Position numbers and translations under genes: made by a program
The notes under the pieces: generated by a model
Database searches by the model: none
What the model saw: only the letters and a program-made list of their open reading frames with translations
What the model was told of the DNA's origin: nothing
Part shown: piece by piece, positions 6,765 through 28,045 of the stretch
How positions within the stretch are numbered: position 1 is the first letter of the stretch
Layout of the letters: every line of letters begins with the position of its first letter
Assembly: GCF_009936275.1 (NCBI RefSeq)
Contig: NZ_AP019797.1
Coordinates: forward strand, 1,603,501 to 1,667,500
Reading direction: 5' to 3'
Origin: Rhodothermus marinus
GTDB taxonomy: Bacteria; Bacteroidota; Rhodothermia; Rhodothermales; Rhodothermaceae
DNA length: 64,000 nt

Positions 6765-6783
6765 GGTACACCAAATGCAAAAC

Positions 6784-8064: not shown

Positions 8065-8129
8065 TTCGGAGAGGGGCCGCGTAGATTACAGGTGGAAATT
8101 GTCCTTCAAAACCAAACCGTGGAGGTACT

Positions 8130-9080: not shown

Positions 9081-9122
9081 AGGAAGGGGTGTATGTTGAA
9101 CCGCAAACACAGGAGGTGGGCT

Positions 9123-9320
9123 ATGTATTCGGCGAAGGTAGACAGAGACGGGCACACGGTTCGGGTGTATGATGCGCGAGGCGGCGTGTTGTTCACGCGG
9201 TCGGTGCCTGGTCGGATCGTGCAGGTAAACATAAGCGGGAATTTGCTGTCGGTGGTGGATGATCGGGGCACGCTTCGGGCGTACGAGCTACCGCGTGGGC
9301 AGCTGAAGTATCAGCGGTGA
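9123..9320 (+). CDS. Small beta-strand-rich protein
   Basis: A 65-residue protein if started at the ATG at 9123, which has a perfect AGGAGG six bases upstream; an in-frame ATG at 9093 would add 10 residues. The sequence (SAKVDRDGHTVRVYDARG, RIVQVNISGNLLSVVDDRG) has alternating hydrophobic residues and repeated D-x-x-G turns, like two blades of a WD40 or PQQ propeller, but is far too short for a full propeller. It follows the unknown 8.1-kb gene and ends at a strong hairpin. Function unknown. Confidence 0.6.
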   Translation: MYSAKVDRDGHTVRVYDARGGVLFTRSVPGRIVQVNISGNLLSVVDDRGTLRAYELPRGQLKYQR

Positions 9321-9328
9321 GTGGGGCA

Positions 9329-9360
9329 GGGGGTGCGGGTCCTGAGGGATCCGCACCCCC
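9329..9360 (+). terminator. Hairpin terminator after the WYL-linked genes
   Basis: GGGGGTGCGG (9329-9338) pairs with CCGCACCCCC (9351-9360) around a 12-base loop, only 8 bases after the stop codon of the small gene. There is no T-run after it. It separates the WYL-linked unit from the BREX operon. Confidence 0.65.
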
Positions 9361-9401
9361 GATGTTACAGGAAGGTTCAGGTGTCTGAAGGTGAAAGATC
9401 C

Positions 9402-9434
9402 GATAGTAACTTCAATAGGAGCGCTATCAGATAG
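9402..9434. promoter_or_regulatory. Candidate operator/promoter region of the BREX operon
   Basis: GATAGT occurs at 9402 and again at 9430, and CTATC at 9424-9428 makes inverted repeats with both. This sits in the 80-base gap between the upstream hairpin and the brxF start, so it is where a BREX regulator such as the nearby WYL protein could act. No clear -35/-10 pair was recognised. Confidence 0.3.
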
Positions 9435-9443
9435 TCGGGGCCT

Positions 9444-9902
9444 ATGGAGGTAGTAGACCACATAATGGCAAAAATAGAAGAAGCACGGTTGCAATACTAC
9501 CGGCTTGTTCTTCTGGTCGGCCCTATGGGAAGCGGTAAGACAAGCGTTCTGCAGGAGGTTTCAAAACGTGTCACTGTCCCGCTTGTTAATGTCAATCTTG
9601 AGCTTGCACGGCGACTGCTGGAGATAAGCCCGCAGCAACGACCATTTAAGGTGCAGAAGCTTCTTGCGGATATCATCAGCGAAATCAAAGGGGATGTAGC
9701 GCTCCTTGATAATCTGGAATTGCTGTTTGACGTCCATTTGAACCAGGACCCGCTGCGTTTGCTTCAGCAGCTTTCCCGGAATAAGACCATTGTGGCGACC
9801 TGGAATGGTGCTGTTTCGGAAGGTCACTTAACCTACGCAAGCCCAAACCACCCGGAATACAAAAAATACAGTCTTAGCGACACGCTTGTAGTACCATTGT
9901 AA
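9444..9902 (+). CDS. brxF: BREX-3 P-loop protein BrxF
   Basis: A 152-residue single-domain P-loop NTPase with Walker A GPMGSGKT (residues 26-33) and a hydrophobic strand ending in Asp-Asn ([11 protein letters not shown]) as Walker B. Size, motif position and its place just before brxC match BrxF, the marker protein of type 3 BREX. Its biochemical role is not established; it is part of the complex that blocks phage replication. The ATG at 9465 is an alternative start. It opens a run of seven co-directional defence genes. Confidence 0.85.
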
Positions 9903-9922
9903 AAAAAACAAAAGTTTGTGTC

Positions 9923-12900
9923 ATGATGGGGGTGAAGTATCGCGATCTGATTCAATTTGAGCCGGTTGAGACCGTTGTCCAGCTGCGAGAAGCCGATAGG
10001 CTGGCCGCCGCCCGCCAGCTGGTCCGCACGTATGTCATCTCCGAAGAGATGGCTGAGCGGATCATAAACGTGGTTTTGCCTAACCTGCAGTTCGACCAGC
10101 CAGCCGATAACAAAGGGTTGTTGGTAGTGGGCAACTACGGTACGGGTAAGTCGCACCTGATGGCCGTCATTTCCGCCATCTGCGAAAGTGCCGAGCTGCT
10201 GAACGAACTCAGCCACCCTCAGGTGGCCGAAGCCGCTCAAGTCGTCGCCGGCAGGTTCAAGGTGGTCCGTACCGAGATTGGAGCTACCACTATGCCGCTG
10301 CGGGATATTCTCACGAAAGAGCTAGAGGAGCACCTGGCGGCGATGGGTGTGATATACACGTTCCCGAAGGCTGATCAGGTTGTGAACAATAAGACGGCCT
10401 TCGAGGAAATGATGAGCGCATTCCATCAGACTTATCCGGACCATGGGTTGCTTCTGGTCGTAGACGAGCTTCTGGACTATCTGCGTACTCGAAAGGACCA
10501 GGAGCTGATTCTCGACCTTAACTTCCTTCGGGAAATAGGCGAGATTTGCAAGGAGTTGCGTTTTCGTTTTATAGCGGGGGTACAGGAGGCGATTTTTGAC
10601 AGCCCTCGATTCGCTTTTGTGGCCGACAGCGTACGTCGAGTCAAGGACCGCTTTGAACAGATCCTCATTGCCCGCCGCGATGTGAAATTCGTCGTTGCCG
10701 AGCGCCTGCTCAAAAAAACCGGCGAGCAACAGGTCAAGATAAACAATTACCTCAGGCCCTTCGCCCGCTTCTATGGTAACATGAACGAACGGATGGACGA
10801 ATTCGTCCGTCTTTTCCCGGTGCATCCGGACTACATCGATACCTTTGAGCGCATTACAGTGGTCGAGAAGCGGGAGGTACTCAAGACGCTTTCAATGGCG
10901 ATGCGAGCGCTGCTCGACCAGGAGGTTCCGGAGGACAGACCCGGTCTGATTGCATACGATAGCTACTGGGATACCCTGCGCAGCAATCCCGCCTTTCGTA
11001 CGATCCCCGAAGTAAAGGAAGTCATTGAGGCAAGTCAGGTGCTGGAATCTCGCATTGAACAAGCATTCCCTCGTCCTCAGTACAAGCCGCTGGCTCTGCG
11101 GATCGTCCATGCCCTTTCGGTTCATCGGTTGACTACAGGAGACATCTACGCCCCCATTGGCCCGACTGCTCAGGAGCTTAGGGACAGCCTCTGCCTGTAC
11201 CAACCAGGAATTGAAGAGCTGGGAGGTGATCCCGCCGAAGATCTGCTTACCCTCATTGAAACCGTTCTGAAAACAATCCAGCACACTGTCAGCGGCCAGT
11301 TCATCTCTTACAATCCAAATAACGGCCAGTGGTACCTGGATCTCAAAAAAACAGAAGACTTCGATGCCCTTATTGAGAAGCGCACCGAAAGTCTGGACGA
11401 CACAGCCCTGGATCGCGCCTACTATGAGGCGTTGCTGATCGCAATGGAAAAGAAAGATGTGCCGACCCATGTGACCGGGTACCGCATCTGGGAACATGAA
11501 CTGACTTGGCCAGCGCGAAATGCCGGACGGAGAGGATACCTGTTCTTTGGCTCGCCCAATGAACGTTCAACGGCCGTTCCGCCACAGGACTTCTATCTCT
11601 ACTTCATCCAGCCGTTCGCTCCACCTTCTTTTAAAGATGAAAAGAAAGCCGATGAGGTTTTCTTCAATCTGAAGGACTTTAGTGAAGAATTTCTTCAGGC
11701 GCTACGTTTTTATGCGGCGGCGCGGGATCTGGCCTCCTCCGCAACCGGCCACGCAAAGAAAGCATACGAAGACAAAGCGTCAGGATATCTGCAGCAACTG
11801 GTGCAATGGCTGCAGGAGCATGCCGCTGAAGCATTCCATGTGACCTACCAGGGACGAAGCCGGCCCCTGCGTGAATGGATTCAGGGGAAGACCATTCGTG
11901 AAGCGGCTGGCATTTCTCCTCACGAGCGGATAAGCTTTCGGGATCTGATCAACATTATTGCCGCACATATTCTCTCGGCTCACTTTGAAGATCTGGCACC
12001 AGAGTATCCACGCTTTTCGGTGCTCATAACCAACCAGAACCGTGCGCAAGCAGCGCAGGATGCACTACGTGCAATTGCCGGGCAGGGCCGCACCAAGCAG
12101 GCTATCGCTGTACTTGATGCGCTGGAGCTTCTCGACGGCGAGCGGCTTGATCCGTATCACTCTCGGTATGCTAAATATGTGCTCGAACTTCTCAAACAGA
12201 AAGGGCCGGATCAGGTAACCCTGCGCTCGGAGCTCATCCAGGACGTTCATGGCGTGGAATATTTTGCCCCAGAGAAGGGATACCGACTGGAGCCGGAGCT
12301 GGCCACCGTCGTCCTTGCTGCTCTGGTTTACTCTGGAGATGCGGTGTTGGCCATTCCCGGTAAAAAGTTTGAGGCCACAAATATTGCCGAGCTTGCGAGC
12401 ACACCCGTTGCCGATCTGGTCAAGTTCAAGCATGTTGAGCCTCCAAAGGAGTGGAATCTCCCCGCACTTCGGGCGCTTTTTGAATTGCTTGGCCTGGCGC
12501 CGGGTATGGCGCAGCTTGTCACTCAGGGAAAGGATGAGCCGGTTCAGCAACTTCAACAGGCCGTTGAAACGAAGTTAGATGAACTGGTGCGGGCTCAGCA
12601 GCTGCTACAGGAAGGGGTGGGGTTCTGGGGACAGCCCCTGATCGACGAAGAACAGGTGCGAACCTGGCGTGCCCGGCTCCAGAAAACCCAATCGTTTCTG
12701 GAATCGTTGCACGTATTCAACACCCCGGGCAAGCTGAAAAACTTCCGCTACGACGCTTCGGAGATCAGGCAGCATGAGGATGGCCTGAGAGTCCTGGAGC
12801 AGATCAAGTCCCTGCAGGAGCTGGTTCAGGCCCTGAGTCCGGTGGCTTCGTATCTGTCTGAAGCCATGCGTCTGATGCCCGAAGACCGTCCGTGGGCAGA

Positions 12901-13669
12901 ACGGGCCCGAGATGTCAGAACACAGGTGCTGAAGCAGGTAGCAGACCTCGCGCGACAGGGAGCAGTTGCTGATGCGATCGGCCCACTTCGCCAGACCCTT
13001 GAATCGCTCAAACGGGATTACATAACAGATTACCTTGCATTGCACGCCCGGGCGCGACTGGGCATTAACGAAGACCGACGAAAGGCGGATCTCCTGAAGG
13101 ACGAGCGTCTGAAAAACCTGCAAGTTCTGGCCACGATCGAAATTCTGCCACACCAGCAGCTTGTCGCCCTGCAAAATCGCTTGGCCAACCTGAAAAGCTG
13201 CTTTGCGCTCACTGAAAGAGAGCTCGAGACATCGCCCATCTGCCCCCATTGTAACTTTAATCCCGCAGCGGAGCCCGTGAAAGCTTCCGCTGCAGCCGTG
13301 CTTGATGGTCTCGATCAGGAGATTGACAACCTGCTGGAGTCCTGGATTCGTGCGTTGCTGGAAAACCTGGAAGATCCGACCATCCGCGGTAACCTTGAGT
13401 TGCTTAAGGCTGAAGCCAGAAGACAGGTAGAGGCGTTTCTGGAATCCGGCCAGCTTCCCGATCCGCTGGTTCCTGAGTTTGTTCAGGCCCTCCAGGAGGT
13501 TCTGTCCGGGCTGGTCAGGGTTACGGTAAAAACCGAAAATCTTCGGGCCGCGCTTCTTAAAGACGGTTCGCCGGTAACACCGGAGGAGCTTTTACGGCGC
13601 TTTCAGGCCTATCTGGATGAACTCACCAGGGGCCATGAGCAGGGTAAGGTGCGTATTGTACTGGAATAA
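9923..13669 (+). CDS. brxC: BREX-3 large ATPase BrxC/PglY
   Basis: A 1248-residue protein with Walker A GNYGTGKS at residues 70-77 and Walker B-like [12 protein letters not shown] near residue 180. A long helical C-terminal half follows, with a CPHCNFNP half zinc-binding motif near residue 1110. This size and architecture are those of BrxC/PglY, the large AAA+ ATPase present in every BREX type and essential for phage exclusion. It starts 20 bases after brxF; two adjacent ATGs (9923 and 9926) are possible starts. The gene is uninterrupted. Confidence 0.9.
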
Positions 13670-13707
13670 TCATGCACAGACGCTAAATTATTATAGAACA
13701 AAATAGC

Positions 13708-16700
13708 GTGCAGGAAATGGGCAACACGCATATTCAGCTGAAGTTGGAGCTTGCGCATGCAGAGACGCAAGGCCACCAGAAAGAACACCCTGTCGAATGT
13801 CTTGGAAAGACCTTTCCAAGCGACGAGGCACGGCGGGAGTACTTCCTCGGCCTCCTGCGCGAGGGTCTGGAGGAGCTCTATGCCAAGCTCGGCGGCGTGC
13901 CCTTCACCACGGTAGAGGAGGCGGTGGCGCGAATGCGGGCCGTGGAGAAGTGGCCAATGGGCGATGACGCGCGTCTCCGCAAGCTTGCCGAGCGGATGCG
14001 TGAGGCCCACCGTCAGGAACCGCACAAAGACCTGCTGCAGCTCTGGAAGGATCAGATCGGCTTCCCGCACGGGGAGATCGAGGACATCCTGAACCTCTCC
14101 GATCCGCCGTATTACACGGCGTGCCCGAATCCCTTCATCGAGGAGTTCATCAAACACTACGGCAAGCCTTACGACCCGGAGCACGACGACTATCACCGTG
14201 AGCCTTTCGCGGCCGATGTGAGCGAAGGCAAGAACGACCCTATCTACAACGCCCACTCCTACCACACGAAGGTGCCGCACAAGGCAATCATGCACTACAT
14301 CCTGCACTACACCGAGCCGGGGGACCTGGTCTTCGACGGCTTCTGCGGGACCGGCATGACCGGCGTGGCGGCGCAACTCTGCGGCGACCGCAGGGCGGTG
14401 GAATCGCTGGGCTACAAGGTGGATGATCAAGGCGTCATCTACCAGCAGGAGACGGACGAGAACGGCAAGACGGTCTGGAAGCCTTTTTCCAAGCTCGGGG
14501 CGCGTCGCGCCGTCCTTAACGACCTCTCGCCTGCGGCTACCTTCATCGCCTACAACTACAACACGCCGGTGGACGTGCAGGCCTTCGAGCGCGAAGCGAA
14601 ACGCATCCTTAAGGAGGTAGAAGAAGAATGCGGCTGGATGTACGCTACGCTCGCCAACCCGAAGCCTGGCGAAGCCGAGCTCTGGGCGGATAAACTCAAG
14701 GCCTGTCGGTCGGCTGAGGAAGTAAGGGCCCTTGTTCAGTCAATCCCGAGCCCGGGCCGGATCAACTACACCGTCTGGTCCGACGTCTTCGTCTGTCCGG
14801 AGTGCACCCGGGAGGTGGTCTTCTGGGAAGCGGCGGTGGACAAGGAAGCCGGCAAGGTGCACAGCGAGTTTCCCTGCCCCCACTGCGGTGCCACGCTCAC
14901 CAAGCGGAACATGGACCGCGCCTGGGTGACCAAGTACGACAAAGCTATCGGCAAGCCCATCCGCCAGGCCAAGCAGGTGCCGGTGCTCATCAACTACAGC
15001 GTGGGCAAGAGGCGTTTCGAAAAGACGCCCGACGCCTTCGACCTGGCGCTGATCGAGAAGATCGAGGCGCTGGATATTCCCTATTGGTTCCCGACCGACC
15101 GTATGCCGGAGGGTGAGGAGTCGCGGCGTAACGATGACATTGGCCTCACCCACGTCCACCATTTTTATACCAAGCGGAATCTGTGGGTGTTGGGGGCGAT
15201 TAGTAAATCTCTCGGTACTAGAACACGCCTTGTTTTTCAATCCATAGTAGCCACACTTTGTTCCCGGCTTGTCCGATACAATATGGGCAATCGCGGCAAT
15301 GGTTCACTATCTGGGACGCTCTATGTCAGTTCACTTATAGCCGAGACTCGTCCAACATGGGTTATGCTGGGCAAAGTCTCTGACTTTGCCAATGCGTTTG
15401 CAGCTCCGACTTATTCCTATGTTGAGACCCACTCAACATCTTTCCTCAGACTTAAGAATAACGATGTTGACTACATCTTCACCGACCCGCCCTTCGGCGG
15501 CAACCTGATGTACTCCGAGCTCAACTTCCTCTGGGAAGCCTGGCTCAAGGTCTTTACCAACAACAAGCCCGAAGCGATCGAGAACAAGGTGCAGGGCAAG
15601 GGCCTGCCGGAGTACCAGCGGCTGATGACCGAGTGCTTCAAGGAGTACTACCGCGTGCTCAAGCCAGGCCGCTGGATGACCGTGGAGTTCCACAACTCCA
15701 AAAACGCCGTTTGGAACGCCATTCAGGAGGCCCTTCAGGCTGCGGGCTTTGTCGTCGCCGACGTGCGCACGCTGGACAAGAAACAGGGCTCTTTCAAGCA
15801 GGTGACCAGCGCCAACGCAGTCAAGCAGGATCTGGTCATCTCATGCTACAAGCCAAACAGCGAACTGGAAGAACGTTTCAAGCGTGAAGCCGGCACCGAG
15901 GAAGGCGTCTGGGACTTTGTCCGCACGCACCTCAGGCAGCTTCCGGTGGTGGTGGAGAACAATGGGAAACTGGAAGTCATTGCCGAGCGACAGGCCTATC
16001 TGCTCTATGATCGCATGGTGGCGTTCCACGTCCAGCGGGGTGTGATGGTGCCCCTCTCCGCGGCGCAATTCTATGCAGGCCTCGCCCAGCGCTTCCCGGA
16101 GCGCGACGGCATGTACTTCCTGCCCGAGCAGGTGGCGGAGTACGACAGAAAGCGCATGCGGGTAAAGGAAGTCCAGCAACTCCAGCTTTTTGTCACCGAC
16201 GAGGCCAGCGCCATCCAGTGGCTGCGGCAGCAGCTCACGCGGAAGCCGCAGACCTTCCAGGAGCTCCACCCGCAATTTCTCAAGGAGATTGGCGGCTGGC
16301 AGAAGCACGAGAAGCGACTCGAGCTTTCCGAGCTGCTGGCGCAGAATTTTCTGCGCTACGACGGTAAGGGGCCGATTCCGCCGCAGATCGTTTCGTGGAT
16401 GCGGCAGAGTGCAGAGCTGCGCGGGATCATTCAGGAAGAGCTGAACGCCGGCCGGGCCACAGAAGACAACCAGGGGCTGCACACAACCCATCCGGAACTT
16501 CTGCGGCGGGCAAAGGACCGCTGGTATGTGCCAGATCCAAACCGAGCCGCTGACCTGGAGAAGCTGCGCGAGCGGGCCCTGCTGCGGGAGTTTGAGGAGT
16601 ACAAACAGTTCAAAGGGCGCCGCCTGAAGGAGTTCCGCCTGGAAGCCGTGCGGGCTGGCTTCAAGAAGGCCTGGCAGGAGCGGGACTACCAGACCATTAT

Positions 16701-16800
16701 CCAGGTGGCCCGCAAAATTCCTGAAACCGTCCTTCAGGAGGATCCCAAGCTGATCATGTGGTACGATCAGGCTGTCACTCGCTTGGGCGAGGAGGGATAA
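13708..16800 (+). CDS. pglX: BREX-3 adenine-specific DNA methyltransferase PglX
   Basis: A 1030-residue gamma-type N6-adenine methyltransferase. SAM-binding motif I is FDGFCGTGMTG (residues 209-219) and the catalytic motif IV is TDPPF (592-596); an additional SDPPY lies at 131-135. Two CxxC pairs (VCPECTREV...PCPHCGATL, about 370-395) look like an inserted zinc ribbon. In BREX, PglX methylates a non-palindromic site on host DNA as the self marker and is also needed for defence. The GTG at 13708 and the ATG at 13717 are both possible starts. The zinc ribbon and overall order support the PglXI type of BREX-3. Confidence 0.9.
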   Translation: MQEMGNTHIQLKLELAHAETQGHQKEHPVECLGKTFPSDEARREYFLGLLREGLEELYAKLGGVPFTTVEEAVARMRAVEKWPMGDDARLRKLAERMREAHRQEPHKDLLQLWKDQIGFPHGEIEDILNLSDPPYYTACPNPFIEEFIKHYGKPYDPEHDDYHREPFAADVSEGKNDPIYNAHSYHTKVPHKAIMHYILHYTEPGDLVFDGFCGTGMTGVAAQLCGDRRAVESLGYKVDDQGVIYQQETDENGKTVWKPFSKLGARRAVLNDLSPAATFIAYNYNTPVDVQAFEREAKRILKEVEEECGWMYATLANPKPGEAELWADKLKACRSAEEVRALVQSIPSPGRINYTVWSDVFVCPECTREVVFWEAAVDKEAGKVHSEFPCPHCGATLTKRNMDRAWVTKYDKAIGKPIRQAKQVPVLINYSVGKRRFEKTPDAFDLALIEKIEALDIPYWFPTDRMPEGEESRRNDDIGLTHVHHFYTKRNLWVLGAISKSLGTRTRLVFQSIVATLCSRLVRYNMGNRGNGSLSGTLYVSSLIAETRPTWVMLGKVSDFANAFAAPTYSYVETHSTSFLRLKNNDVDYIFTDPPFGGNLMYSELNFLWEAWLKVFTNNKPEAIENKVQGKGLPEYQRLMTECFKEYYRVLKPGRWMTVEFHNSKNAVWNAIQEALQAAGFVVADVRTLDKKQGSFKQVTSANAVKQDLVISCYKPNSELEERFKREAGTEEGVWDFVRTHLRQLPVVVENNGKLEVIAERQAYLLYDRMVAFHVQRGVMVPLSAAQFYAGLAQRFPERDGMYFLPEQVAEYDRKRMRVKEVQQLQLFVTDEASAIQWLRQQLTRKPQTFQELHPQFLKEIGGWQKHEKRLELSELLAQNFLRYDGKGPIPPQIVSWMRQSAELRGIIQEELNAGRATEDNQGLHTTHPELLRRAKDRWYVPDPNRAADLEKLRERALLREFEEYKQFKGRRLKEFRLEAVRAGFKKAWQERDYQTIIQVARKIPETVLQEDPKLIMWYDQAVTRLGEEG

Positions 16801-16804
16801 GGCA

Positions 16805-18658
16805 ATGCGCCTGAAAACACTTGTACTACGAAACTTCAGAGGCTATAAAGGGGAGGTCCGGATTCCCATACATCCAGACCTAACGGCTTTTGTCGGGAAA
16901 AACGATGTGGGTAAATCTACCATACTCGACGCGCTGGCCATATTCTTTGATTTTCCGCTTGTGAAGTTCGACACATCGGACCGGTGCGTCTATGCAGAGG
17001 ACATGGAAGTTCGCATTGGCTGTGTCTTTGACGAGTTACCCGATTCCCTTACGCTGGATGCCACATCAACAACAAAGCTGCAGGAGGAATATCTTTTGAA
17101 CGAAGATGGCGACCTGGAGATACACAAGGTTTTCGATTGTTCTGCGAGAACACCTAAGCCTCGTGTTGTGGCGCGGGCCATGCATCCCGCCGCTGAGGAT
17201 TACAACGATCTGTTAGAGCTTAAAAACTCAGATCTCAAGAGGCGACTTAGGCAGAAACAGGTTGACGCTACCGGTATCGACCTGAGGAGCAACCCTTCCA
17301 TTCGCAAGGCCCTCTGGGCTTCCTGTGATGACCTTCGTCTCACGCTCAGGGATGTTGAACTGAACAAGGAGGACGCAAAGAAGATCTGGGAGCAGCTTCA
17401 ACGCTACTTACCGATTTTCGCCCTCTTCCGTTCAGACCGTCCCGGCACGGACGAGGACAGCGAGGTTCAAGATCCCATGAGGCTTGCCGTCAAGCAGGCA
17501 ATTTCTGAACTGGAAGGGGATTTGCAGGCAATTCAAGACAGGATTCGGGACGCCGCTTTAGATGTTGCCAGACGGACATTAGAGAAGCTCAAGGATTTGG
17601 ACCCAAACCTGGCCAAAGAACTGAACCCGACATTCCGCTCCGATCCTAAATGGGACTCGTTGTTCAAGCTGACGCTCACCACGGACGATCAGATTCCTGT
17701 CAATAAAAGGGGAAGTGGTGTTCGCCGGTTAATCCTTCTTGGTTTTTTTCGCGCCGAGGCCGAGCGACGGCTGGATGAGGAACGAAAGTCAAAAGTTATC
17801 TATGCGATCGAGGAACCGGAAACCTCGCAACATCCGTCAAACCAGCGCAGGTTGATTGAGGCGCTCAAGGACCTCGCTTCGGCGGATGGATGTCAGGTTC
17901 TTATCACGACGCATGTTCCCGGTCTGGCCGAGATGATACCAACAGAGGCCCTCCGATACATTCAGCTCGGGAGCGACGGCACGCGCGAGGTTAAGGAGGG
18001 TACAGATGAGGTCCTCCGGGCAATAGCTGATGATCTTGGCGTGATTCCCGATAACCGTGTGCGTGTGTTCGTTTGTGTGGAAGGTCCCAATGATGTTGAG
18101 TTTTTAAAAAACATGGCCAGGGTCTTGCTTAAAGCCGGAGAAAAATGTGGTTTTGATCCGGATAACACTCCAGAAGTCGTGTTTTTGCCACTTGGCGGTA
18201 GCACATTGCGGGATTGGGTGAACAATCACTACCTCAAACCCTTGAAACGTCCTGAGATTCACATCTATGATGGGGGGACGGATTATTCGTCCAGGTATCA
18301 AGCTCAGGTGGAGAAGATTAACCAACGCAACGATGGATCGAAGGGGTTCTTAACCAAGAAACGGGAAGCAGAAAATTACCTGCACCCTGATGCAATCCGT
18401 GAGGTGCTGGGCGTCGAAGTGGAGGTGTCCGATGAGAATGATGTGCCTGAAGCGGTGGCACGCGCTATCCATAACCGCCAGGAGGGGAATGTGCCATGGG
18501 AGCAGCTCAGCGACAGAAGGCGAAAAAGGAAAAAGGATGAAGCAAAGAAGCGGCTGAACACCGAAGTGGCAGCCGCAATGACGGTAGAGCGGCTCCGAGA
18601 GCGTGGAGCCTTGGATGAGATTCGTGAGTGGTTTGGGGCAATTAAGGCATTGATATAG
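16805..18658 (+). CDS. OLD-type ATPase/TOPRIM nuclease inserted in the BREX operon
   Basis: A 617-residue protein of the OLD (overcoming lysogenization defect) group. The N-terminal ABC-type ATPase has Walker A GKNDVGKS (31-38) and the Walker B/H-loop region YAIEEPETSQHPS...LITTHVPGL. The C-terminal TOPRIM domain begins at VFVCVEGPNDVEFL, with the catalytic Glu and a later basic/acidic helix region. Such proteins cleave or nick DNA in an ATP-dependent way and occur in several phage-defence systems, for example Gabija GajA and retron partners. It starts 4 bases after pglX ends and 3 bases before the helicase, so it belongs to the operon, though it is not a standard BREX-3 gene. No UvrD-like GajB partner lies next to it. 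Confidence 0.88.
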   Translation: MRLKTLVLRNFRGYKGEVRIPIHPDLTAFVGKNDVGKSTILDALAIFFDFPLVKFDTSDRCVYAEDMEVRIGCVFDELPDSLTLDATSTTKLQEEYLLNEDGDLEIHKVFDCSARTPKPRVVARAMHPAAEDYNDLLELKNSDLKRRLRQKQVDATGIDLRSNPSIRKALWASCDDLRLTLRDVELNKEDAKKIWEQLQRYLPIFALFRSDRPGTDEDSEVQDPMRLAVKQAISELEGDLQAIQDRIRDAALDVARRTLEKLKDLDPNLAKELNPTFRSDPKWDSLFKLTLTTDDQIPVNKRGSGVRRLILLGFFRAEAERRLDEERKSKVIYAIEEPETSQHPSNQRRLIEALKDLASADGCQVLITTHVPGLAEMIPTEALRYIQLGSDGTREVKEGTDEVLRAIADDLGVIPDNRVRVFVCVEGPNDVEFLKNMARVLLKAGEKCGFDPDNTPEVVFLPLGGSTLRDWVNNHYLKPLKRPEIHIYDGGTDYSSRYQAQVEKINQRNDGSKGFLTKKREAENYLHPDAIREVLGVEVEVSDENDVPEAVARAIHNRQEGNVPWEQLSDRRRKRKKDEAKKRLNTEVAAAMTVERLRERGALDEIREWFGAIKALI

Positions 18659-18661
18659 TGG

Positions 18662-21499
18662 ATGAGTCAAAACACACATTCGCTATCAGGCAAATGGTAC
18701 TACCTCCCCGAGTATGGCGAACTTTGTCAGCTTATTGAGGCCCAGGCGCTCTGGGGCGAGACGGTCTGTCGCGTCTGGTTGCCGGGTCGAAATGCCATTG
18801 TGCAGCTACCGGCTTCACGCCTGAAGCCAGTAGAAGAAGCGGGATTCCGGACCAAAGAGAGCCTTGCTTATGTAGTGGCCGCAGCACGTGTGGCTGATGC
18901 GCTCAGCCGGGACGTATTGCTGGCACCTGTGGCCTCTTCTGTGATTCCACTTCCACATCAGATTTATGCCCTTTCGCGAGCGATTTCCGGCGACCGCGTG
19001 CGCTACCTTTTGGCCGACGAAGTCGGATTGGGCAAAACTATCGAGGCAGGCCTCATCATGCGGGAGCTCAAGCTCCGGGGCTTGGTGCGGCGTACGCTGG
19101 TTGTGGCTCCAAAGGGGTTGGTCCGTCAGTGGATTGCCGAGATGGCCACCCATTTCAATGAGACCTTTCATCTGATCCTTTCCGAAGATTATCGGACTCT
19201 GAAGCGACTGAATCTCCATCCTAATCCATTTCAAGCGTTTGATCAGGTGGTCGTTTCTATGGACTCGGTCAAGCCGCCCAGACTGAAGCAGGCCGAAGAT
19301 CCAGTACGCGAACGCTTCGAAGATTTGATCACCGCCGGATGGGATCTGATTATCGTGGACGAGGCGCACCGACTGGGAGGTAGTACCGATCAGGTAGCCC
19401 GCTACAGGCTCGGTCAGGCTCTGGCTGAAGCGGCACCGTATCTGCTCCTTCTGTCAGCCACGCCGCATCAGGGGAAAACCGACCAGTTTCGGCGTCTCAT
19501 TTCGCTGCTTGATCCGATGGCCTTTCCAGAAGACGAAAGTATTACCCGTGATCGGGTGCGTCCTTACGTGATTCGCACAGAGAAGCGCCAGGCCATTGAT
19601 CCGGAGGGGAAGCCGCTTTTTAAGCCCCGCTTCACACAACTTGCACCGATCGTCTGGGACGATCGCCATCAGCATGAACGGCTGCTCTACGAGGCCGTCA
19701 CCGAATACGTACGCCAGGGATATAACCGGGCGGTTGCTGAGCGGCGCAACTACATCGGGTTTTTAATGGTCCTGATGCAACGGCTGGTTACCTCAAGTAC
19801 CCGAGCTATTCGTACCACGCTGGAGCGGCGCTTGGAAGCGCTGAAGACCCGGGCGAAGAAACTTGCCCGAAAGGAATTCTTCGATGAGGAGGAATGGGCC
19901 GATCTGGACGGGCAGGAGCAGGTGGAATGGCTCCTGAACACCCTTTCGTTTGAGGCGTGGGCGCAGGAACGGAAAGAAGTCGAACACCTTCTTGAACTGG
20001 CCAGGCGTTGCGAACGCCAGGGACCGGACGCCAAAGCAGAGGCCCTGCTGGACTGGATCTACCGACTTCAGGCTGAAGAGAACGATCCCAACCTGAAGGT
20101 GCTCATCTTTACTGAGTTTGTCCCGACTCAGGAGATGCTTTACGAGTTTCTTACTGAGCGGGGCTTTAAAGTGGTGTGTATCAACGGGTCTATGGATCTG
20201 GAAGAACGTCGGCGTGCTCAGCAAAACTTTGCCGGGGAAGCGCGGATTCTCGTTTCCACCGACGCAGGTGGGGAGGGGCTCAACCTTCAATTCTGTCATG
20301 TAGTGATTAACTACGATATCCCTTGGAATCCGATGCGCCTGGAGCAGCGGATCGGTCGAGTTGACCGCATTGGCCAGCCAAAGGTGGTGCGGGCTGTAAA
20401 TTTTGTGCTGAGGGATTCCGTTGAACATCGCGTGCTGCAGGTGCTGGAGCAGAAGCTTGCGGTGATTCTGGAGGAGCTCGGGGTGGATAAAACGGGAGAC
20501 GTGCTTGATTCCGCTCAGGCAGAACAGCTCTTTGATGAGCTATATCTTGCAGCCATTCTCCATCCTGAGAAGCTTGAGGAAAAGGCCGAAGAGTTGCTCG
20601 CAGGCTTTCAAGAGCTGGCCCGGGATGTGCGTCAGAGTCTCTCGCTGCTCGGATCTGCCACGGAACTGGACGCGCGAGAAGCTCAGCGTATGATTGCTCA
20701 TCCATTTCCGCACTGGGTAGAACGCATGACGGTCAATTATCTGCAAGCACATGGGGGACGTGCAGAGAAACAGGGAGGTTTCTGGGCGCTTACCTGGCCG
20801 GATGGCGAGCAGCTGAAGGGCGTAGTATTTTCAGTTCGAGAGGCCGAAGAGAGTCCGGCGGGCATTCATCTGACGCTTGAGCATCCCAGAGTGCGCGGCC
20901 TGGCCATGCGCCTGCCCACTTTTGTGCCGGGTCAACCTGTACCGGTGGTCTCCATTCCCGAGTTGAGCTCGAAAGTGCAGGGATTCTGGTCGCTGTGGGA
21001 GATATCTATTCAGTCGAACACAATAACAATCCCTGGCATGTCCGTTTCAACCTTTGCGCGACAACGCCGAATGTTGCCGGTTTTTCTGGCGGATAATGGT
21101 CGAGTGTTTGTCCCGACAGCTCGGCACATCTGGGATCTTCTATTGACCAGACCGTTTACCGTTCTTCGTCATCTGGACAGCCAAGATTCGCGGCATGTGT
21201 TTGAGCGCCTTCGCAAGGTAGCAGAAGAACAGGGTCAACCTCTGTATGAAGAACTGGTGCGTGAGCGCCAGGAACAGCTGGAACGGGAGCGCCAGAAGGC
21301 TGAATATGCGTTCGCTGCCCGGCGTCGGGCCATAGAGCGCATTGGGCTTATGCAGGTGCGAGATCATCGTCTGCGACTTCTTGAGAAAGAGGAGGCTCGT
21401 TTCCGGGAACAGCTTGCGCTGGCGGCACAGGTTATTCCAGAAATGAAGGCGCTCGTTTTGATTCGAGTGGAAAAGGAGGTTCATGAGCGGCTGGCGTGA
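18662..21499 (+). CDS. brxHII: BREX-3 SNF2/RapA-like helicase BrxHII
   Basis: A 945-residue superfamily 2 helicase/translocase. Motif I DEVGLGKT (119-126), motif II DEAH (233-236), motif III LLSATPHQGK, and the C-terminal motifs STDAGGEGLNLQ and EQRIGRVDRIGQ are all intact, giving a RapA/SNF2-like protein. Its place between pglX and pglZ matches brxHII of type 3 BREX. The C-terminal ~150 residues are charged and helical, probably a coiled coil. Its last 17 bases overlap pglZ, so expression of the two is coupled. Confidence 0.88.
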   Translation: MSQNTHSLSGKWYYLPEYGELCQLIEAQALWGETVCRVWLPGRNAIVQLPASRLKPVEEAGFRTKESLAYVVAAARVADALSRDVLLAPVASSVIPLPHQIYALSRAISGDRVRYLLADEVGLGKTIEAGLIMRELKLRGLVRRTLVVAPKGLVRQWIAEMATHFNETFHLILSEDYRTLKRLNLHPNPFQAFDQVVVSMDSVKPPRLKQAEDPVRERFEDLITAGWDLIIVDEAHRLGGSTDQVARYRLGQALAEAAPYLLLLSATPHQGKTDQFRRLISLLDPMAFPEDESITRDRVRPYVIRTEKRQAIDPEGKPLFKPRFTQLAPIVWDDRHQHERLLYEAVTEYVRQGYNRAVAERRNYIGFLMVLMQRLVTSSTRAIRTTLERRLEALKTRAKKLARKEFFDEEEWADLDGQEQVEWLLNTLSFEAWAQERKEVEHLLELARRCERQGPDAKAEALLDWIYRLQAEENDPNLKVLIFTEFVPTQEMLYEFLTERGFKVVCINGSMDLEERRRAQQNFAGEARILVSTDAGGEGLNLQFCHVVINYDIPWNPMRLEQRIGRVDRIGQPKVVRAVNFVLRDSVEHRVLQVLEQKLAVILEELGVDKTGDVLDSAQAEQLFDELYLAAILHPEKLEEKAEELLAGFQELARDVRQSLSLLGSATELDAREAQRMIAHPFPHWVERMTVNYLQAHGGRAEKQGGFWALTWPDGEQLKGVVFSVREAEESPAGIHLTLEHPRVRGLAMRLPTFVPGQPVPVVSIPELSSKVQGFWSLWEISIQSNTITIPGMSVSTFARQRRMLPVFLADNGRVFVPTARHIWDLLLTRPFTVLRHLDSQDSRHVFERLRKVAEEQGQPLYEELVRERQEQLERERQKAEYAFAARRRAIERIGLMQVRDHRLRLLEKEEARFREQLALAAQVIPEMKALVLIRVEKEVHERLA

Positions 21500-23504
21500 T
21501 CATATTTTGAGAGCGTTTACGCCAGGAGCCGCCCGGCTTACTCTTGTGGCGGATCCGGATGATTTGTTGCTGGACGAAAACATACTTCAGGAAATTCGCG
21601 CAAGAGGTTTTGAGTTAATTCCTTTTGAGGATTCCGTGGCTTTTCGCTATGTCTACGAGTCCAGATTTCGTTCTTGGTGGGATCGCGGTGAGGAGACCGA
21701 GCTGGTGGTTGTATTGCGCTTGCCATCAGGCCAGCTTGAATGCCTGCCATATGATTTGCTTCAGGCCGGGCGTCAGCTTTCATTCAGTCTGAGTGATCTG
21801 TTTCCCAACCTGAGCTATCCGGTCGTATCTGCGCTGGATCGTGCCGATCTTGATAAGCTGTATGCAGCTCAAGAAGAATACAGGCCTGAGCCGCTTGGGG
21901 AAAATGCAACAAAAGATTTCGTCCTGCGCCATGTGTTTGATATTGTAATTGTACCAGAGCATATCAGGAAGCCCGAAGATCTGCTTCGGGTGCTATTGCG
22001 ACTTCATTATCGCCAGCAGCGCATTCCAGAAATTCTCGTTGAATACCTGAACAGGCTTTTGCTGCAGAATCCGTGTTTTAAAGACTGGCCCCTTGAGATA
22101 ATCGTGTCGGATTCGGAAGCCTTTTTTTCGTTTCTGCAGGAGCGATGGCCGGTCTTCCTTGATTGGCTTATCCAGCCCCAAGAGTTTGCGGCTATACGAG
22201 AGGTCCAGGAGCGCTATGGTTTGAAGTTTTCGGGACCGGCGCTTTTGCCTTTTAATCATGAGGATGTGCGTGTTTATGTAGACAATTTATTTCTTGATGG
22301 AAAATTACAACCTGTGTCACATTCACGGGCTGACCAGGTTATTCAGATAAATCCCTGGGTCATTTGTGGGATTCTGCGGTCTGAGAAAGAGTCCCGGCAA
22401 CAACGCATAAAGAAATTGCTTGATACATTGGAGAAAGAGACGGTGCTCACAACGGCAGAGGTGAGACATGAAGCATGGGCGTATTTTGCTTATCGCTGGG
22501 CAGAGCTCTGGGCGCTCCTTCGCGATCCAGATGCTTTTTTAGACGACATATATCGTGAGCATGTGGAGAAATTACAGGCTCGTATAGATGCGTGTTTTTT
22601 GACATGGGTACAGCAACGTTATCCAAGTTTGATCAACCTTCCGCCTACCGTACCTACCATGCTGCATCATATTCCTCGGTATTTTGCCAGACAGCTTGAG
22701 GGAAGACAAGACGTGAAAATCGCTTTTTTGGTGATAGATGGGCTTGCTCTGGATCAATGGATTGTGGTGCGCCAGGAACTCAAGCGGCAGGATAAAAATC
22801 TTCAGTTCGGAGAAAAAACGGTATTCGCCTGGATACCGACAATTACCCCGGTGTGCCGTCAGGCTGCTTTTGCGGGGAGGCCGCCATTCTTCTTTCCGAA
22901 AAGTATTCACACCACGGATAGGGAGGCGTCCCTGTGGACTCAGTTCTGGACAACTTGGGGCTTGAGCCAGGATGAGGTGGGCTATTGTAGGGGGCTGGGT
23001 GATAACCTTGGGGAACGCGTTGAAGAGATGCTCAACCAACCCCGTCTGCGTGTTGCTGGGTTGGTTATTGACAAGGTAGATCGAATTATGCACGGTATGG
23101 AGCTGGGGGCGGCCGGAATGCATAACCAGGTGCGTCAGTGGGTCAGGGAGGGATTTTTGAAGGAGCTTTTGGATTTGCTGAATGCGCATGGATTTCAGGT
23201 CTATCTTACCTCAGATCACGGAAACGTTGAAGCGGTGGGTATGGGCAAACCTCAGGAAGGTGCGGTAGCAGACGTGCGCGGGGAACGAGTCCGTGTGTAT
23301 AAAGATCCTGCCTCCAGGGCAAGAGTTAAGAAACAATTTCCAAGCGCATTGGAATGGCCACCAATAGGCCTTCCAGAAGACTACCTTCCGCTCATAGCTC
23401 CCGAACGGATGGCGTTTGTGCAGAAAGGAAAAATTCTGGTGACTCATGGAGGCATCAGCCTTGAGGAGCTGATTGTGCCCTTTGTGCGGGTTGAAAGACG
23501 ATAG
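21483..23504 (+). CDS. pglZ: BREX-3 alkaline-phosphatase-superfamily protein PglZ
   Basis: A 673-residue protein. The C-terminal half is an alkaline-phosphatase-like PglZ domain: metal site FLVIDGLALDQW (Asp419) and the second site TSDHGNVEAVG (Asp578, His579). PglZ is common to all BREX types; the domain has been shown in other systems to be a nuclease-like or phosphodiesterase-like metalloenzyme. The N-terminal half is helical with no motif I can name. It overlaps brxHII by 17 bases. Complete, with metal ligands present. Confidence 0.88.
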   Translation: MSGWRDHILRAFTPGAARLTLVADPDDLLLDENILQEIRARGFELIPFEDSVAFRYVYESRFRSWWDRGEETELVVVLRLPSGQLECLPYDLLQAGRQLSFSLSDLFPNLSYPVVSALDRADLDKLYAAQEEYRPEPLGENATKDFVLRHVFDIVIVPEHIRKPEDLLRVLLRLHYRQQRIPEILVEYLNRLLLQNPCFKDWPLEIIVSDSEAFFSFLQERWPVFLDWLIQPQEFAAIREVQERYGLKFSGPALLPFNHEDVRVYVDNLFLDGKLQPVSHSRADQVIQINPWVICGILRSEKESRQQRIKKLLDTLEKETVLTTAEVRHEAWAYFAYRWAELWALLRDPDAFLDDIYREHVEKLQARIDACFLTWVQQRYPSLINLPPTVPTMLHHIPRYFARQLEGRQDVKIAFLVIDGLALDQWIVVRQELKRQDKNLQFGEKTVFAWIPTITPVCRQAAFAGRPPFFFPKSIHTTDREASLWTQFWTTWGLSQDEVGYCRGLGDNLGERVEEMLNQPRLRVAGLVIDKVDRIMHGMELGAAGMHNQVRQWVREGFLKELLDLLNAHGFQVYLTSDHGNVEAVGMGKPQEGAVADVRGERVRVYKDPASRARVKKQFPSALEWPPIGLPEDYLPLIAPERMAFVQKGKILVTHGGISLEELIVPFVRVERR

Positions 23505-23540
23505 GAGTATTTCAATTCAACATCAGAGAGAGAGCTAACC

Positions 23541-24305
23541 ATGGTGCACCGTTCTAACCATATTGGATTTAGCCAACGTGTTCGCTTGGAATGGCTGGAA
23601 CTAACGGCGAATCTGGTACTCGCCGGCAATGATGAGAAGGTGATTTATAATAGTCTTCAAGAATTGTTAAAAGATAAGCTATCTGTTGATAGCAATGCCC
23701 GCTGGGGTAACCGGGCGAAGACGATTTCTATCTTAATGCGGATATGGGTGCGGCCCCCTGGCAGATTGCGATCCTTTCACCAAGAGGGCCTTAGCCTGCT
23801 TTCGCATCTGCCATCTGAGGAGCATCTGGCAGTGCACTGGGGTATGACCATAGCTGTATACCCGTTCTGGGAAGCTGTTGCGGCACAGGTGGGGCGATTG
23901 CTCAGGCTTCAGAGAGTCGTCAGTCATGCCCAGGTGCGGCGCCGTATTATGGAATGGTATGGCCAACGTCCTACTGTTAAGGATGCAGTTCGCCGAGTGC
24001 TTCGCTCTATGATTGATTGGGGAGTTTTAAATGAGGGTGGAAATAGCCGAGGTGAATACGTGCGGGGGCGTTCCTTAAGTATAACCGACACAAGGCTGAT
24101 TACCTGGCTGGTGGAAGCGTTTTTGCACGCTCAACCCAACGGCTCGGGATCACTTGAGACGATTCTCAATGCGCCAAGCTTTTTTCCTTTCCGGATGAAT
24201 TTTATTTCCGCCGCCCAGTTGGTTTCAGGCTCTGAGCGGCTTGAAGTGCTGAGGCATAGCCTGGACCAGGATTTGATTTTGCTACGCTCAGAAGCCAGTG
24301 GTTAG
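23541..24305 (+). CDS. BrxA-like protein closing the BREX-3 operon
   Basis: A 254-residue helical basic protein, 36 bases after pglZ. In BREX-3 the last gene is normally brxA (DUF1819), a small winged-helix DNA-binding protein. The pattern FWEAVAAQVGRLLRLQ followed by TVKDAVRRVLRSMIDWGVL resembles the DUF1819 winged-helix region, as does the position. Sequence conservation in this family is low, so the name is based mainly on context. The protein may instead be a less typical BREX accessory. GC content begins to fall downstream of it. Confidence 0.6.
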   Translation: MVHRSNHIGFSQRVRLEWLELTANLVLAGNDEKVIYNSLQELLKDKLSVDSNARWGNRAKTISILMRIWVRPPGRLRSFHQEGLSLLSHLPSEEHLAVHWGMTIAVYPFWEAVAAQVGRLLRLQRVVSHAQVRRRIMEWYGQRPTVKDAVRRVLRSMIDWGVLNEGGNSRGEYVRGRSLSITDTRLITWLVEAFLHAQPNGSGSLETILNAPSFFPFRMNFISAAQLVSGSERLEVLRHSLDQDLILLRSEASG

Positions 24306-24518
24306 CCTTGTAAAGGTTGAGAGGTTTTTGAATTAAAGATAAAACCTTGCTTGTTCGATTAATAGCTAAAGATCTTTTAACTGTTATTCCCAATCCATAA
24401 GGCTCTAAATAGAGATTCTAACGCTTTTGGGGTTCAAGGGAAAAAGGTCTTGTGCCTCAGGGGACTGCTAGACTAAACAAACTGGCGTGTTCAGATAAGA
24501 TATCAAGGAAGGGGCTGA
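24306..24518. other. AT-rich gap between BREX and TIGR04255 cassette
   Basis: About 210 bases, clearly more AT-rich than the surroundings, with no gene, hairpin or repeat I can identify. It probably holds the promoter of the TIGR04255-HEPN cassette. Confidence 0.4.
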
Positions 24519-25250
24519 ATGGCTGCCCAATACAAAAAACCACCGATCATAGAGGCACTCTGTGAATTTCGCCTTGGCCAGGATACGGAATGGGATTTGA
24601 CCGTTCCGGGGCAATTTTACGAAAGAGTTAAGGACCAATTCCCCCATCGAGAGCATCGTACGGTTCAGGTAGTTGAGTTTGCGTTCCAGCCCCAGAATGT
24701 TCAGCAGCAGATTCGATCAGAGGAGCGAGTTTTGCTCTTTACACCCGATCGAAAGGCGCTGGTACAGATAGGACCCCGACTGCTGGTCGTTAATGTGTTA
24801 AAACCATATCCTTCCTGGCAGCGCTTTAAACCGCTTATAGAGAGGGCCTGGCAAGCGTTGCAGCAGGTGATAACCTTAAGGCAGTTGGAACGGATTGGTT
24901 TGCGGTATATTAACCGTATAGAATTTGAAGCTTCCAAGGTCGACCTGAAGGTATATTTTGATTACTACCTGCACGTGGGTACTCGGCTACCACAGGAATA
25001 CGCCTCTTTTGCTGTACAGGCGGTGTTTCCGTTTGCTGAGGGAAGAGATCGATGTCTGGTTAGATTGGCTTCGGCTGAGAGCGAACAACAGCGATCTGCG
25101 GTGATACTTGACATCAACTACCACTGGGCGCGTCCCGGTGCGGTTGAAATTACCAGAGCACTCGAATGGGTCGAAGAGGCACATAGTAGAGTAGAAGAAG
25201 TATTCGAGGGATGTATTACCGACGAAATGAGACGAATTTTTAATTCGTGA
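24519..25250 (+). CDS. TIGR04255 family protein
   Basis: A 243-residue protein starting AAQYKKPPIIEALCEFRL, the hallmark N-terminus of the sporadically distributed TIGR04255 family (P-x-I-x-E-A-x-x-E). It continues with the conserved LERIGLRYINRIEF and a C-terminal helix (VEEAHSRVEEVFEGCITDEM) typical of the family. Its function is unknown; members occur in variable, defence-rich parts of genomes. It is the first of three tightly packed genes after the BREX operon: 4-base overlap (GTGA) with the next possible start, or 8 bases to the ATG at 25259. Confidence 0.85.
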   Translation: MAAQYKKPPIIEALCEFRLGQDTEWDLTVPGQFYERVKDQFPHREHRTVQVVEFAFQPQNVQQQIRSEERVLLFTPDRKALVQIGPRLLVVNVLKPYPSWQRFKPLIERAWQALQQVITLRQLERIGLRYINRIEFEASKVDLKVYFDYYLHVGTRLPQEYASFAVQAVFPFAEGRDRCLVRLASAESEQQRSAVILDINYHWARPGAVEITRALEWVEEAHSRVEEVFEGCITDEMRRIFNS

Positions 25251-25258
25251 AAGCTGAT

Positions 25259-25825
25259 ATGTTTGCCGACACACTTACACTGACTGCCGAGGATGCCGAA
25301 TCCGTGAAAGAGCAGCTATATCAGATGGGGTCTGCTCTAAGCGATCTTGTCTCTGAAGAGATAGAGAGGTTTGAGACTTTAAGCTTAGTGGAGGGAAATT
25401 TTAATTCAATGCTTGCGCAGGCTTCGTATTCTGGTCGATTTAGATCGGAACCAGAAGTCTCTATTGAAGCAGAAATTGAGAAATTGTTTCAATGGATCAA
25501 AGAACAAGGAGTTGCCCTGAAAAGAATTGATCAGGTGAGAGAATATCTACTGCAGTTTCCAGACCTGCTGGATATAATACCCGAAGCGATTTGTTCAACC
25601 AGAAAGCATTTCCCAGAAGGGCAACTGACCCTTGACATTTACCAGGATCCTGAGATTGAAGACCAGTATCTTGTTTTGTATGTCAGGCTTGCGCACTACG
25701 ATGAGACAACGCTTGACCGATTGCAGAAAGCAGAAGCCGCGTTTCTGGATGCTCTTTCTGACAGAGAAGGATGGATTCAGTTGACCACGGATTTTCGTGA
25801 GCCGGACGTAAACAATGTCCTTTGA
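25259..25825 (+). CDS. Unknown middle gene of the TIGR04255-HEPN cassette
   Basis: A 188-residue acidic protein (from ATG 25259; a GTG at 25247 overlapping the upstream stop would add four residues). The N-terminal half is helical (EDAESVKEQLYQMGSALSDL). The C-terminal half has the alternating pattern QLTLDIYQDPEIEDQYLVLY, predicted beta strands. No catalytic motif is visible. The end overlaps the start of the HEPN gene by 11 bases, so the two are coupled. The coupling suggests it acts with the HEPN protein, but a function is not known. Confidence 0.7.
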   Translation: MFADTLTLTAEDAESVKEQLYQMGSALSDLVSEEIERFETLSLVEGNFNSMLAQASYSGRFRSEPEVSIEAEIEKLFQWIKEQGVALKRIDQVREYLLQFPDLLDIIPEAICSTRKHFPEGQLTLDIYQDPEIEDQYLVLYVRLAHYDETTLDRLQKAEAAFLDALSDREGWIQLTTDFREPDVNNVL

Positions 25826-26180
25826 CTGGCTTTCGTATCTGGATTTGGCCAGAGTTCTGGCCGGACAAAGCAATGTGAGTCATTTACAGGAGGCAGCAAA
25901 TCGTTCTGCAGTGAGCAGAGCTTACTATGCTGCTTTCTGCTTTTGTCGAAATTACGCCGAGCAACATCTGGGCTTTCAGAGAAGCAGTTTAGCAGCTGAA
26001 CATGCGCAGCTAAGAAAGCATCTGAGCAAGCGCAATAAAGGAAAAGTGGCCTCCGATTTAAACAAATTGAGACAGTGGCGTAATCAGTGTGATTACGATG
26101 ATAGTGTAAATCGATTGCATCAGATGGTCAGAAACAGCATACGTCTCGCTGAACAGGTCATATTGCAGATCCAGCAATAA
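25815..26180 (+). CDS. HEPN-domain protein
   Basis: A 121-residue all-helical HEPN protein. The first signature is NRSAVSRAYYAAFCFCRNYAE and the second LRQWRNQCDYDD near residue 90. HEPN proteins are frequent RNases or RNase-derived subunits of toxin-antitoxin and defence systems; catalytic ones carry R-x4-6-H. Here the equivalent motif is R-N-Q-C-D-Y, so the His is replaced by Tyr, as in the R-x3-D-Y subgroup, and RNase activity is uncertain. It is the last gene of a three-gene cassette with TIGR04255 and an unknown protein. Confidence 0.78.
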   Translation: MSFDWLSYLDLARVLAGQSNVSHLQEAANRSAVSRAYYAAFCFCRNYAEQHLGFQRSSLAAEHAQLRKHLSKRNKGKVASDLNKLRQWRNQCDYDDSVNRLHQMVRNSIRLAEQVILQIQQ

Positions 26181-26238
26181 TTGGCCTGCCATATAACGCT
26201 TCGCTCTACTTTACAAATTCGGCGCCAGGGGCTATCAT

Positions 26239-26263
26239 CCTGTCAAATTCCGCCGATAACAGG
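26239..26263. promoter_or_regulatory. Candidate SOS-type operator before umuD
   Basis: CCTGT and ACAGG form an inverted repeat spanning 25 bases about 30 bases before the umuD start. umuDC genes are usually LexA-controlled, and this is the only clear symmetric element in the upstream region. The LexA box of this lineage is not known to me, so this is only a candidate. Confidence 0.25.
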
Positions 26264-26294
26264 CAAAAAAAGAACTTTTTTTCCGACAGGACGC

Positions 26295-26729
26295 ATGAGC
26301 ACACGCGTTGTCGAAGTGGTGCCGGTTCGTATCGGGGAGCCGCTGCGGTTGCCGCTGCTGCTGAGCCGGGTGCCGGCCGGTTTTCCTTCGCCCGCTGATG
26401 ACTACATCGAAGAGGCGCTCGACCTGAACGAACTGCTCATCCGCCATCCCGCGGCCACCTTCTTCATGCGTGTCGAAGGCGACTCGATGATCGAGGCTGG
26501 AATCCACTCAGGAGATCTCTTGATCGTCGATCGGGCGATCGAGCCGCGACCGGGGCACGTGGTGGTGGCAGCCGTCTGCGGTGAACTGACCGTCAAGCGT
26601 CTGAAGCTGCACGAAGGGCGGCTGTGCCTGATGCCGGAAGACGGCTCCCATGAGCCGCTGCCGATCCGCGAAGAGATGGAAGTGGTCATCTGGGGCGTGG
26701 TCACCTGTGTTATCCACCCACTTGTTTGA
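26295..26729 (+). CDS. umuD: UmuD-like S24 peptidase
   Basis: A 144-residue UmuD homologue: a LexA-fold serine-lysine peptidase with Ser64 in EGDSMIEAG and Lys101 in LTVKRL, and an Ala-Gly self-cleavage site (VPAGFPSP, residues 28-29). After RecA-stimulated self-cleavage UmuD' joins UmuC as the translesion polymerase Pol V. The open frame extends further upstream, but the ATG at 26295 gives the usual family length and start ([12 protein letters not shown]). umuC starts 7 bases after its stop. Both are typical residents of accessory islands. Confidence 0.92.
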
Positions 26730-26736
26730 ACAGCCT

Positions 26737-27996: not shown

Positions 27997-28045
27997 TCGA
28001 TGCAACTCAATGCGTCCGCTAGGGAAGTGCTGATCGCTATCACGG

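Follow-up and report, generated by a model that had tools for sequence, protein, structure and literature searches.

The DNA analysed here, referred to as the window, is a stretch of 64,000 nucleotides from Rhodothermus marinus. Its positions 24519-26180 hold three coupled genes (Table 1), with exactly the open reading frames given in an earlier, sequence-only reading; the TIGR04255 and ORF2 genes overlap by 4 bp, and the ORF2 and HEPN genes by 11 bp. Pfam, NCBIfam and PADLOC agree with that reading that the first gene encodes a TIGR04255-family protein and the third a HEPN protein, and none of the three databases has a family for the middle protein, ORF2. Upstream of the cassette lie BrxF, BrxC, PglX, an AAA_15 ATPase, BrxHI, PglZ and BrxA (NCBIfam, PADLOC), the PglZ being of BREX-3 type (E 2e-252), and umuD and umuC were confirmed downstream, so that the cassette does sit between BREX-3 and umuDC. 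None of the BREX models in NCBIfam and PADLOC matches the TIGR04255 protein, ORF2 or HEPN protein of the window, and in the loci read other cassettes do not adjoin BREX; we therefore rejected the cassette as a core component of BREX. The AAA_15 ATPase (617 aa, window 16805-18658), which is encoded between PglX and BrxHI within the BREX operon, has AriA as its nearest PADLOC model (5.6e-62).

Table 1. Features of the cassette and its island, in window positions.
Feature	Position	Strand	Description
TIGR04255-family protein	24519..25250	+	243 aa; fold predicted to be TBP-like; putative sensing or stabilising subunit
ORF2 (middle protein)	25247..25825	+	192 aa, GTG start; proposed antitoxin
HEPN protein	25815..26180	+	121 aa; putative RNase toxin with a variant active site (Y37-Y38, H63, R89-xxx-D93-Y94)
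Low-GC island (BREX and cassette)	9341..26224	.	delimited by blastn to congener G004 (L145) and GC profile

The cassette had been described as more AT-rich than its neighbours. This is true with respect to the downstream DNA (GC 0.63-0.67, against 0.46-0.47 in the cassette), but not with respect to the end of the BREX operon (0.48-0.51). Thus, the cassette is part of a low-GC island and does not stand apart from BREX. In blastn, the congener G004 aligned to window 5495-9341 (89%) and 26224-26378 (92%), and between those flanks it has 8.6 kb of different DNA with, among others, restriction-modification genes for an EcoRV-type endonuclease, a D12 methyltransferase and a ResIII/HSDR_N protein. 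With the same flanks and other contents in the congener, BREX and the cassette together fill a variable defence site as a single block of 16.9 kb, of which the cassette forms the end. The conserved domain of ORF2 described below (ORF2C) was present in only 2 of 296 sampled genomes of the window's phylum, a rarity consistent with horizontal acquisition. At the same site in the congener (L145, G004:C2:86000-104000, from 16362-16511 onward), the first part of umuD runs directly into the last part of umuC, which looks like the remnant of an internal deletion in umuDC.

The HEPN assignment of the third protein came from a Pfam match below the cut-off (0.004) and from PADLOC HEPN_IX (4.9e-6). Searched against the PDB, a profile of its family found 9xbd (E 4e-9), 9xbc (4e-8) and the HEPN protein of retron-Kva2 (36ht, 1.4e-4), and, weakly, 2hsb (AF0298, E 0.056). 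As the sequence-only reading had noticed, the window protein has Tyr in place of the His of the canonical Rx4-6H motif (R89-N-Q-C-D-Y94), and this replacement is family-wide. Among 29 distinct HEPN proteins adjoining an ORF2C, R30, S34, R35, Y37 and H63 were found in 29/29 and Y38 and Y94 in 28/29, while R89 and D93 were found in 28/28 and 27/27 of those aligning there. The family thus has the conserved upstream His and the Arg of R-xxx-D-Y that mark an alternative-His HEPN. In the alignment to 36ht, a first segment places Y40-42 on Y37-38 and H64 on H63, and a second, very weak segment places R122-xxx-DY on R89-xxx-D93-Y94. In retron-Kva2 the mutations H64A, R122A and Y40-42A abolish defence, and activation depletes tRNA (2026 preprint, PMC13405049).

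Does the missing His mean that the effector is another protein? The earlier reading had raised this doubt, and a catalytically dead HEPN, with a structural or regulatory function, would fit the Tyr in place of the canonical His. We regard this as highly improbable. The replacement is the rule in the family; H63 and R-xxx-D-Y are essentially invariant and match residues mutated in an active HEPN (PMC13405049); an upstream His was proposed as the alternative active-site residue of the AF0298-like HEPN variant by Anantharaman et al. (PMC3710099); and neither TIGR04255 nor ORF2 belongs to a known catalytic family. Because the invariant H63 and R-xxx-D-Y align with the mutated residues of retron-Kva2, the HEPN protein is most likely an active RNase and, judged from its sequence, very probably the effector of the cassette. 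By analogy with the retron, its target is probably tRNA or other cellular RNA. The alternative-histidine active site, hitherto characterised in a retron, would then extend to a widespread non-retron module.

The resemblance to retron-Kva2 (type IX) covers the non-canonical site, in which His and Arg lie apart and which shares YY(Y) and R-xxx-D-Y in the profile alignment, and a three-part logic of a sensor and a restrained HEPN. However, the retron has a reverse transcriptase, msDNA and a winged-helix protein where the cassette has TIGR04255 and ORF2. With no reverse transcriptase among the three genes, and no Rfam match at 9000-28000, the cassette is not a retron. The AF0298-like HEPN-T proteins (PF05168; PDB 2hsb) also lack the His of Rx4-6H, have a conserved Asp there and an alternative His upstream, and cluster with restriction-modification operons, whereas partners like ORF2C and TIGR04255 are not described for them in the searched parts of the same paper (PMC3710099). 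Related HEPN proteins were also seen in phage contigs (L121-L126), where they follow a 250-284-aa protein without known family that replaces ORF2C.

ORF2 consists of a variable, helical N-terminal part (about residues 1-72) and a conserved alpha/beta domain, ORF2C (about residues 73-187), and its conservation is confined to the C-terminal ~110 residues. In an AF2 model the C domain was predicted with a pLDDT of 94-98 in the order alpha-alpha-beta-beta-alpha-beta, and the linker before it was poor. The ORF2 profile gave only chance matches in the PDB and no sequence match to a known antitoxin; in the fold search no match to a PDB chain had an E-value below 1e-3, the C domain weakly resembling OsmC/MamM-CTD-like folds. 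Pfam matches of ORF1 or ORF2 to LysX_preATP_grasp, Rotamase_2, DUF2203 and DUF6907 fell below the cut-off and were discarded. A nucleotidyltransferase (MNT) identity of ORF2 was likewise dropped, having no match in Pfam or NCBIfam. The cassette thus resembles the HEPN-MNT (type VII) systems in having a small HEPN toxin beside a partner gene, but its partner is no nucleotidyltransferase by sequence.

The ORF2 alignment, used in an unbiased search through 251 Chloroflexus-phylum genomes, returned 13 matches, 11 of them directly 5' of a HEPN gene, and 6 of these 11 loci have TIGR04255 in front. ORF2C matches in L135 and L144 lacked an adjacent HEPN and were set aside as chance. In an Opitutaceae MAG (L026, a single case), a Panacea antitoxin domain (PF13274, 5e-11) and ORF2C form one protein directly before HEPN, a link to the Panacea (DUF4065/SocA) network, although the window ORF2 has no Panacea domain in Pfam. 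In L147, a protein of 908 aa, again before HEPN, ends in ORF2C and weakly matches adenine DNA methyltransferases (MmeI_Mtase 1.3e-4, BREX-2 PglX 6.6e-6). Gloeothece plasmids carry a two-gene pair of HEPN and an ORF2C of 118-119 aa. As several such pairs lack TIGR04255, the third component is not obligatory. ORF2C therefore acts like a constant partner of HEPN that is combined with exchangeable N-terminal modules, which would suit an antitoxin or adaptor. The pair also shows genomic traits of type II toxin-antitoxin systems, namely adjacent small proteins, overlapping genes and a mobile distribution that includes plasmids. On these sequence features ORF2C is probably an antitoxin, and we are confident that ORF2C and HEPN act as a toxin-antitoxin-like pair, which would make ORF2C a newly defined antitoxin-like domain. 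In two loci (L117:1114-1464 and L138:846-1229) a 116-127-aa protein without a family precedes ORF2C-HEPN in place of TIGR04255; it is possibly an alternative regulator.

The complete cassette, TIGR04255-ORF2-HEPN in identical order, was found in 16 loci by the ORF2 genome scan and HMM parsing. The earlier reading had made its proposal depend on such co-occurrence in other genomes, and it survived. Hosts include the Thermus brockianus plasmid pTB1, Tectomicrobia, Chloroflexus, Acidobacteriota, Methanoculleus and a Methanocorpusculaceae archaeon, and further cassettes came from genomes sampled from the Chloroflexus and Methanoculleus phyla and from a viral contig (L044); several of the cassette-bearing genomes are MAGs. 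A gene order conserved across phyla in 16 loci makes the cassette more than a chance arrangement. Pairwise protein distances in these loci, not corrected for shared species history, were correlated (0.81 for TIGR04255 and ORF2, 0.87 for TIGR04255 and HEPN, and 0.87 for ORF2 and HEPN; permutation p 0.0002), which at the level of sequence shows common inheritance of the three genes. In Thermogutta, L021 and L058 are probably one cassette split across two contig ends. At L075/L133 (G595:C68) the TIGR04255 gene of a HEPN cassette is broken by a TAG stop; the HEPN gene looks disrupted too, as in a decayed copy.

Defence genes adjoin several of these cassettes. A ResIII-type protein follows the cassettes of L020 (by Pfam) and L021 (by sequence likeness), an Mrr endonuclease adjoins L019, an MZB/DEAD helicase L016 and HsdS L137, and L008 lies near a DNA methylase and Cas6; these are the neighbourhoods of individual loci, and in L018, L022 and L059 there was no obvious defence gene in the stretch read. 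Taken with the gene order, the overlaps and the correlated divergence, the restriction or BREX neighbours in several genomes support the proposal of a single system, with a putative layout of sensor, antitoxin and effector.

What does the first protein contribute? It matches NCBIfam TIGR04255 (sporadTIGR04255) over the whole model (1-252 of 252; E 3.3e-48, 164.7 bits against a cut-off of 30). The family is indeed sporadic, as had been stated: it was present in 15/296 genomes of the window's phylum, 19/251 of the Chloroflexus phylum and 30/197 of the Methanoculleus phylum. It is named in no paper of the open literature searched. TIGR04255 is mostly the first gene of a compact set in which the second and third genes vary, and it is thus not tied to HEPN. 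Besides ORF2C and HEPN, the sets contain PemK/MazF, a frequent 'QSCDL' family and others. PemK/MazF is the third gene in L031-L033 and L097 (PF02452, 4e-13 and 1.5e-9), with L032-L033 counted through their cluster, c10. Second genes of one family, c6, are followed by MazF in L097 and by a 'QSCDL' protein in L095, L099, L103, L111 and L113; as read from these sequences, this exchange of partners is a direct signature of swapping between putative toxins. The other third genes after TIGR04255 are a source of candidate toxins.

In the AF2 model of the TIGR04255 protein (pLDDT 89, pTM 0.85), a half with the order strand-helix-four strands-helix precedes another that resembles it; no sequence trace of an internal duplication was found. 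The 17 top-ranked PDB matches of the model were TBP chains (E 2.8e-4 to 4.1e-3, probability 0.92-1.00), with a whole-chain TM-score of about 0.3 and an rmsd of about 11 over both halves. Given this low TM-score, we put the TBP-like fold forward as likely only. One possibility is that the protein is a TBP-like saddle that binds nucleic acid, either as a repressor of the operon or to detect phage DNA or RNA hybrids. The TBP matches share the same strand and helix order, the TBP-like domains of RNase HIII offer a precedent, and a TBP-like domain is fused to some HEPN toxins among the relatives of RNase LS (PMC3710099); the TBP match is, however, at fold level only and in a predicted model, and we consider direct binding of nucleic acid rather unlikely. 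The RNase LS system itself, RnlA-RnlB, is like the proposed layout of the cassette in having a HEPN RNase toxin and a separate antitoxin, for which phage T4 Dmd can substitute (PMC5308261). In the cassette, by contrast, HEPN and the predicted TBP-like domain belong to different proteins, the HEPN site is of the alternative type, and no kinship of ORF2 to RnlB was established.

A second possibility is the logic of toxin-antitoxin-chaperone (TAC) systems, in which TIGR04255 would fold or protect an unstable ORF2 through the N-terminal part of ORF2, and loss of the chaperone would free the toxin. The cassette shares with TAC systems three genes, a common third component and exchangeable toxins, and one TIGR04255 family accompanies different putative antitoxin/toxin pairs, which would suit a generic chaperone. 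Most TIGR04255-linked ORF2 proteins have 30-65 extra N-terminal residues, whereas the stand-alone ORF2C of phage and Gloeothece start 3-18 residues from the domain. Yet the TIGR04255-linked L019 has only 6 residues before the match, long N-termini also occur in ORF2 proteins without TIGR04255 (L025, L117 and L138), and the TIGR04255 protein is predicted to be TBP-like, and none of the 50 PDB matches listed was a SecB chain. A chaperone is for these reasons an unlikely identity for it. Whether as sensor, nucleic-acid binder or chaperone, its exact role is assigned with lower confidence than the module as a whole.

We propose that the cassette is a modular three-gene, self-inhibited toxin-antitoxin or abortive-infection module (probability about 0.6). 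The proposal builds on the conserved cassette, the HEPN family and its putative catalytic residues, the pairing of ORF2C with HEPN, the Panacea fusion and the swapping of candidate toxins under TIGR04255, all of which are read from sequence. From these we infer toxicity, its neutralisation, sensing by TIGR04255 and a part in phage defence. HEPN would be an RNase toxin, dimeric like the HEPN of retron-Kva2, that attacks tRNA or other cellular RNA; ORF2C would bind and silence it, and the variable N-terminal part of ORF2 would tie ORF2 to its regulator. This regulator would be the TBP-like TIGR04255 protein, keeping the complex together or sensing infection. Once TIGR04255 is engaged or displaced, HEPN would be freed and growth would stop. 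TIGR04255, a family without known function, becomes in this way a candidate component of toxin-antitoxin or defence systems.

Viral sequences bear on what the module is for. Seven IMG/VR contigs carry a stand-alone ORF2C without an adjoining HEPN, with up to 62% identity to the window ORF2C, and two of them (L003 and L005) contain phage-type genes. The ORF2 model also had a fold match to a viral protein of 104 aa (A0A823A1N8, E 8e-6). The phage evidence for ORF2C comes from the IMG/VR contigs; named phage records gave no match for ORF2 or TIGR04255. A stand-alone viral ORF2C suggests a possible phage antidote, that is, counter-defence.

The module might instead be a plain addiction module that stabilises its island or plasmid, with no anti-phage role, as cassettes on plasmids and viral contigs and two-gene forms on plasmids could indicate. 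The additional TIGR04255, the repeated proximity to restriction or BREX genes and the hotspot location fit defence better, and viral contigs that carry a lone ORF2C suit counter-defence by phages, so that we think a pure addiction role improbable. On balance, we favour phage defence as the function of the whole module, by a modest degree. More tentatively, and with clear reservation, TIGR04255 could be the TBP-like sensor of a modular three-part immune superfamily of bacteria and archaea, in which adaptor-antitoxins and toxins (HEPN, MazF/PemK and several unknown families) are exchangeable and against which phages carry a bare ORF2C antidote.

Further sets headed by TIGR04255 were seen. Cluster c2 (17 proteins, in L095, L062, L099, L103, L107, L111 and others) follows TIGR04255 and has 'QSCDL' and '(L)SQAFARFFMRVGLP' motifs; the members tried had no match in Pfam, PADLOC or NCBIfam, and this 'QSCDL' family is a candidate new effector. 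In L029, L036, L072 and L041 (clusters c3/c7/c12), the gene after TIGR04255 often encodes an 'NWDGYGA'-like motif, and a small third gene without known family comes next. In L014, L048, L049 and L054 (clusters c8/c9) it is followed by a c8 protein, with an HTH domain in L014, and then by a third protein, which has a 'QHPCAL'/'QHPCAI' motif in L048 and L054. The c8/c9 loci sit on a Rhodococcus plasmid and on viral contigs.
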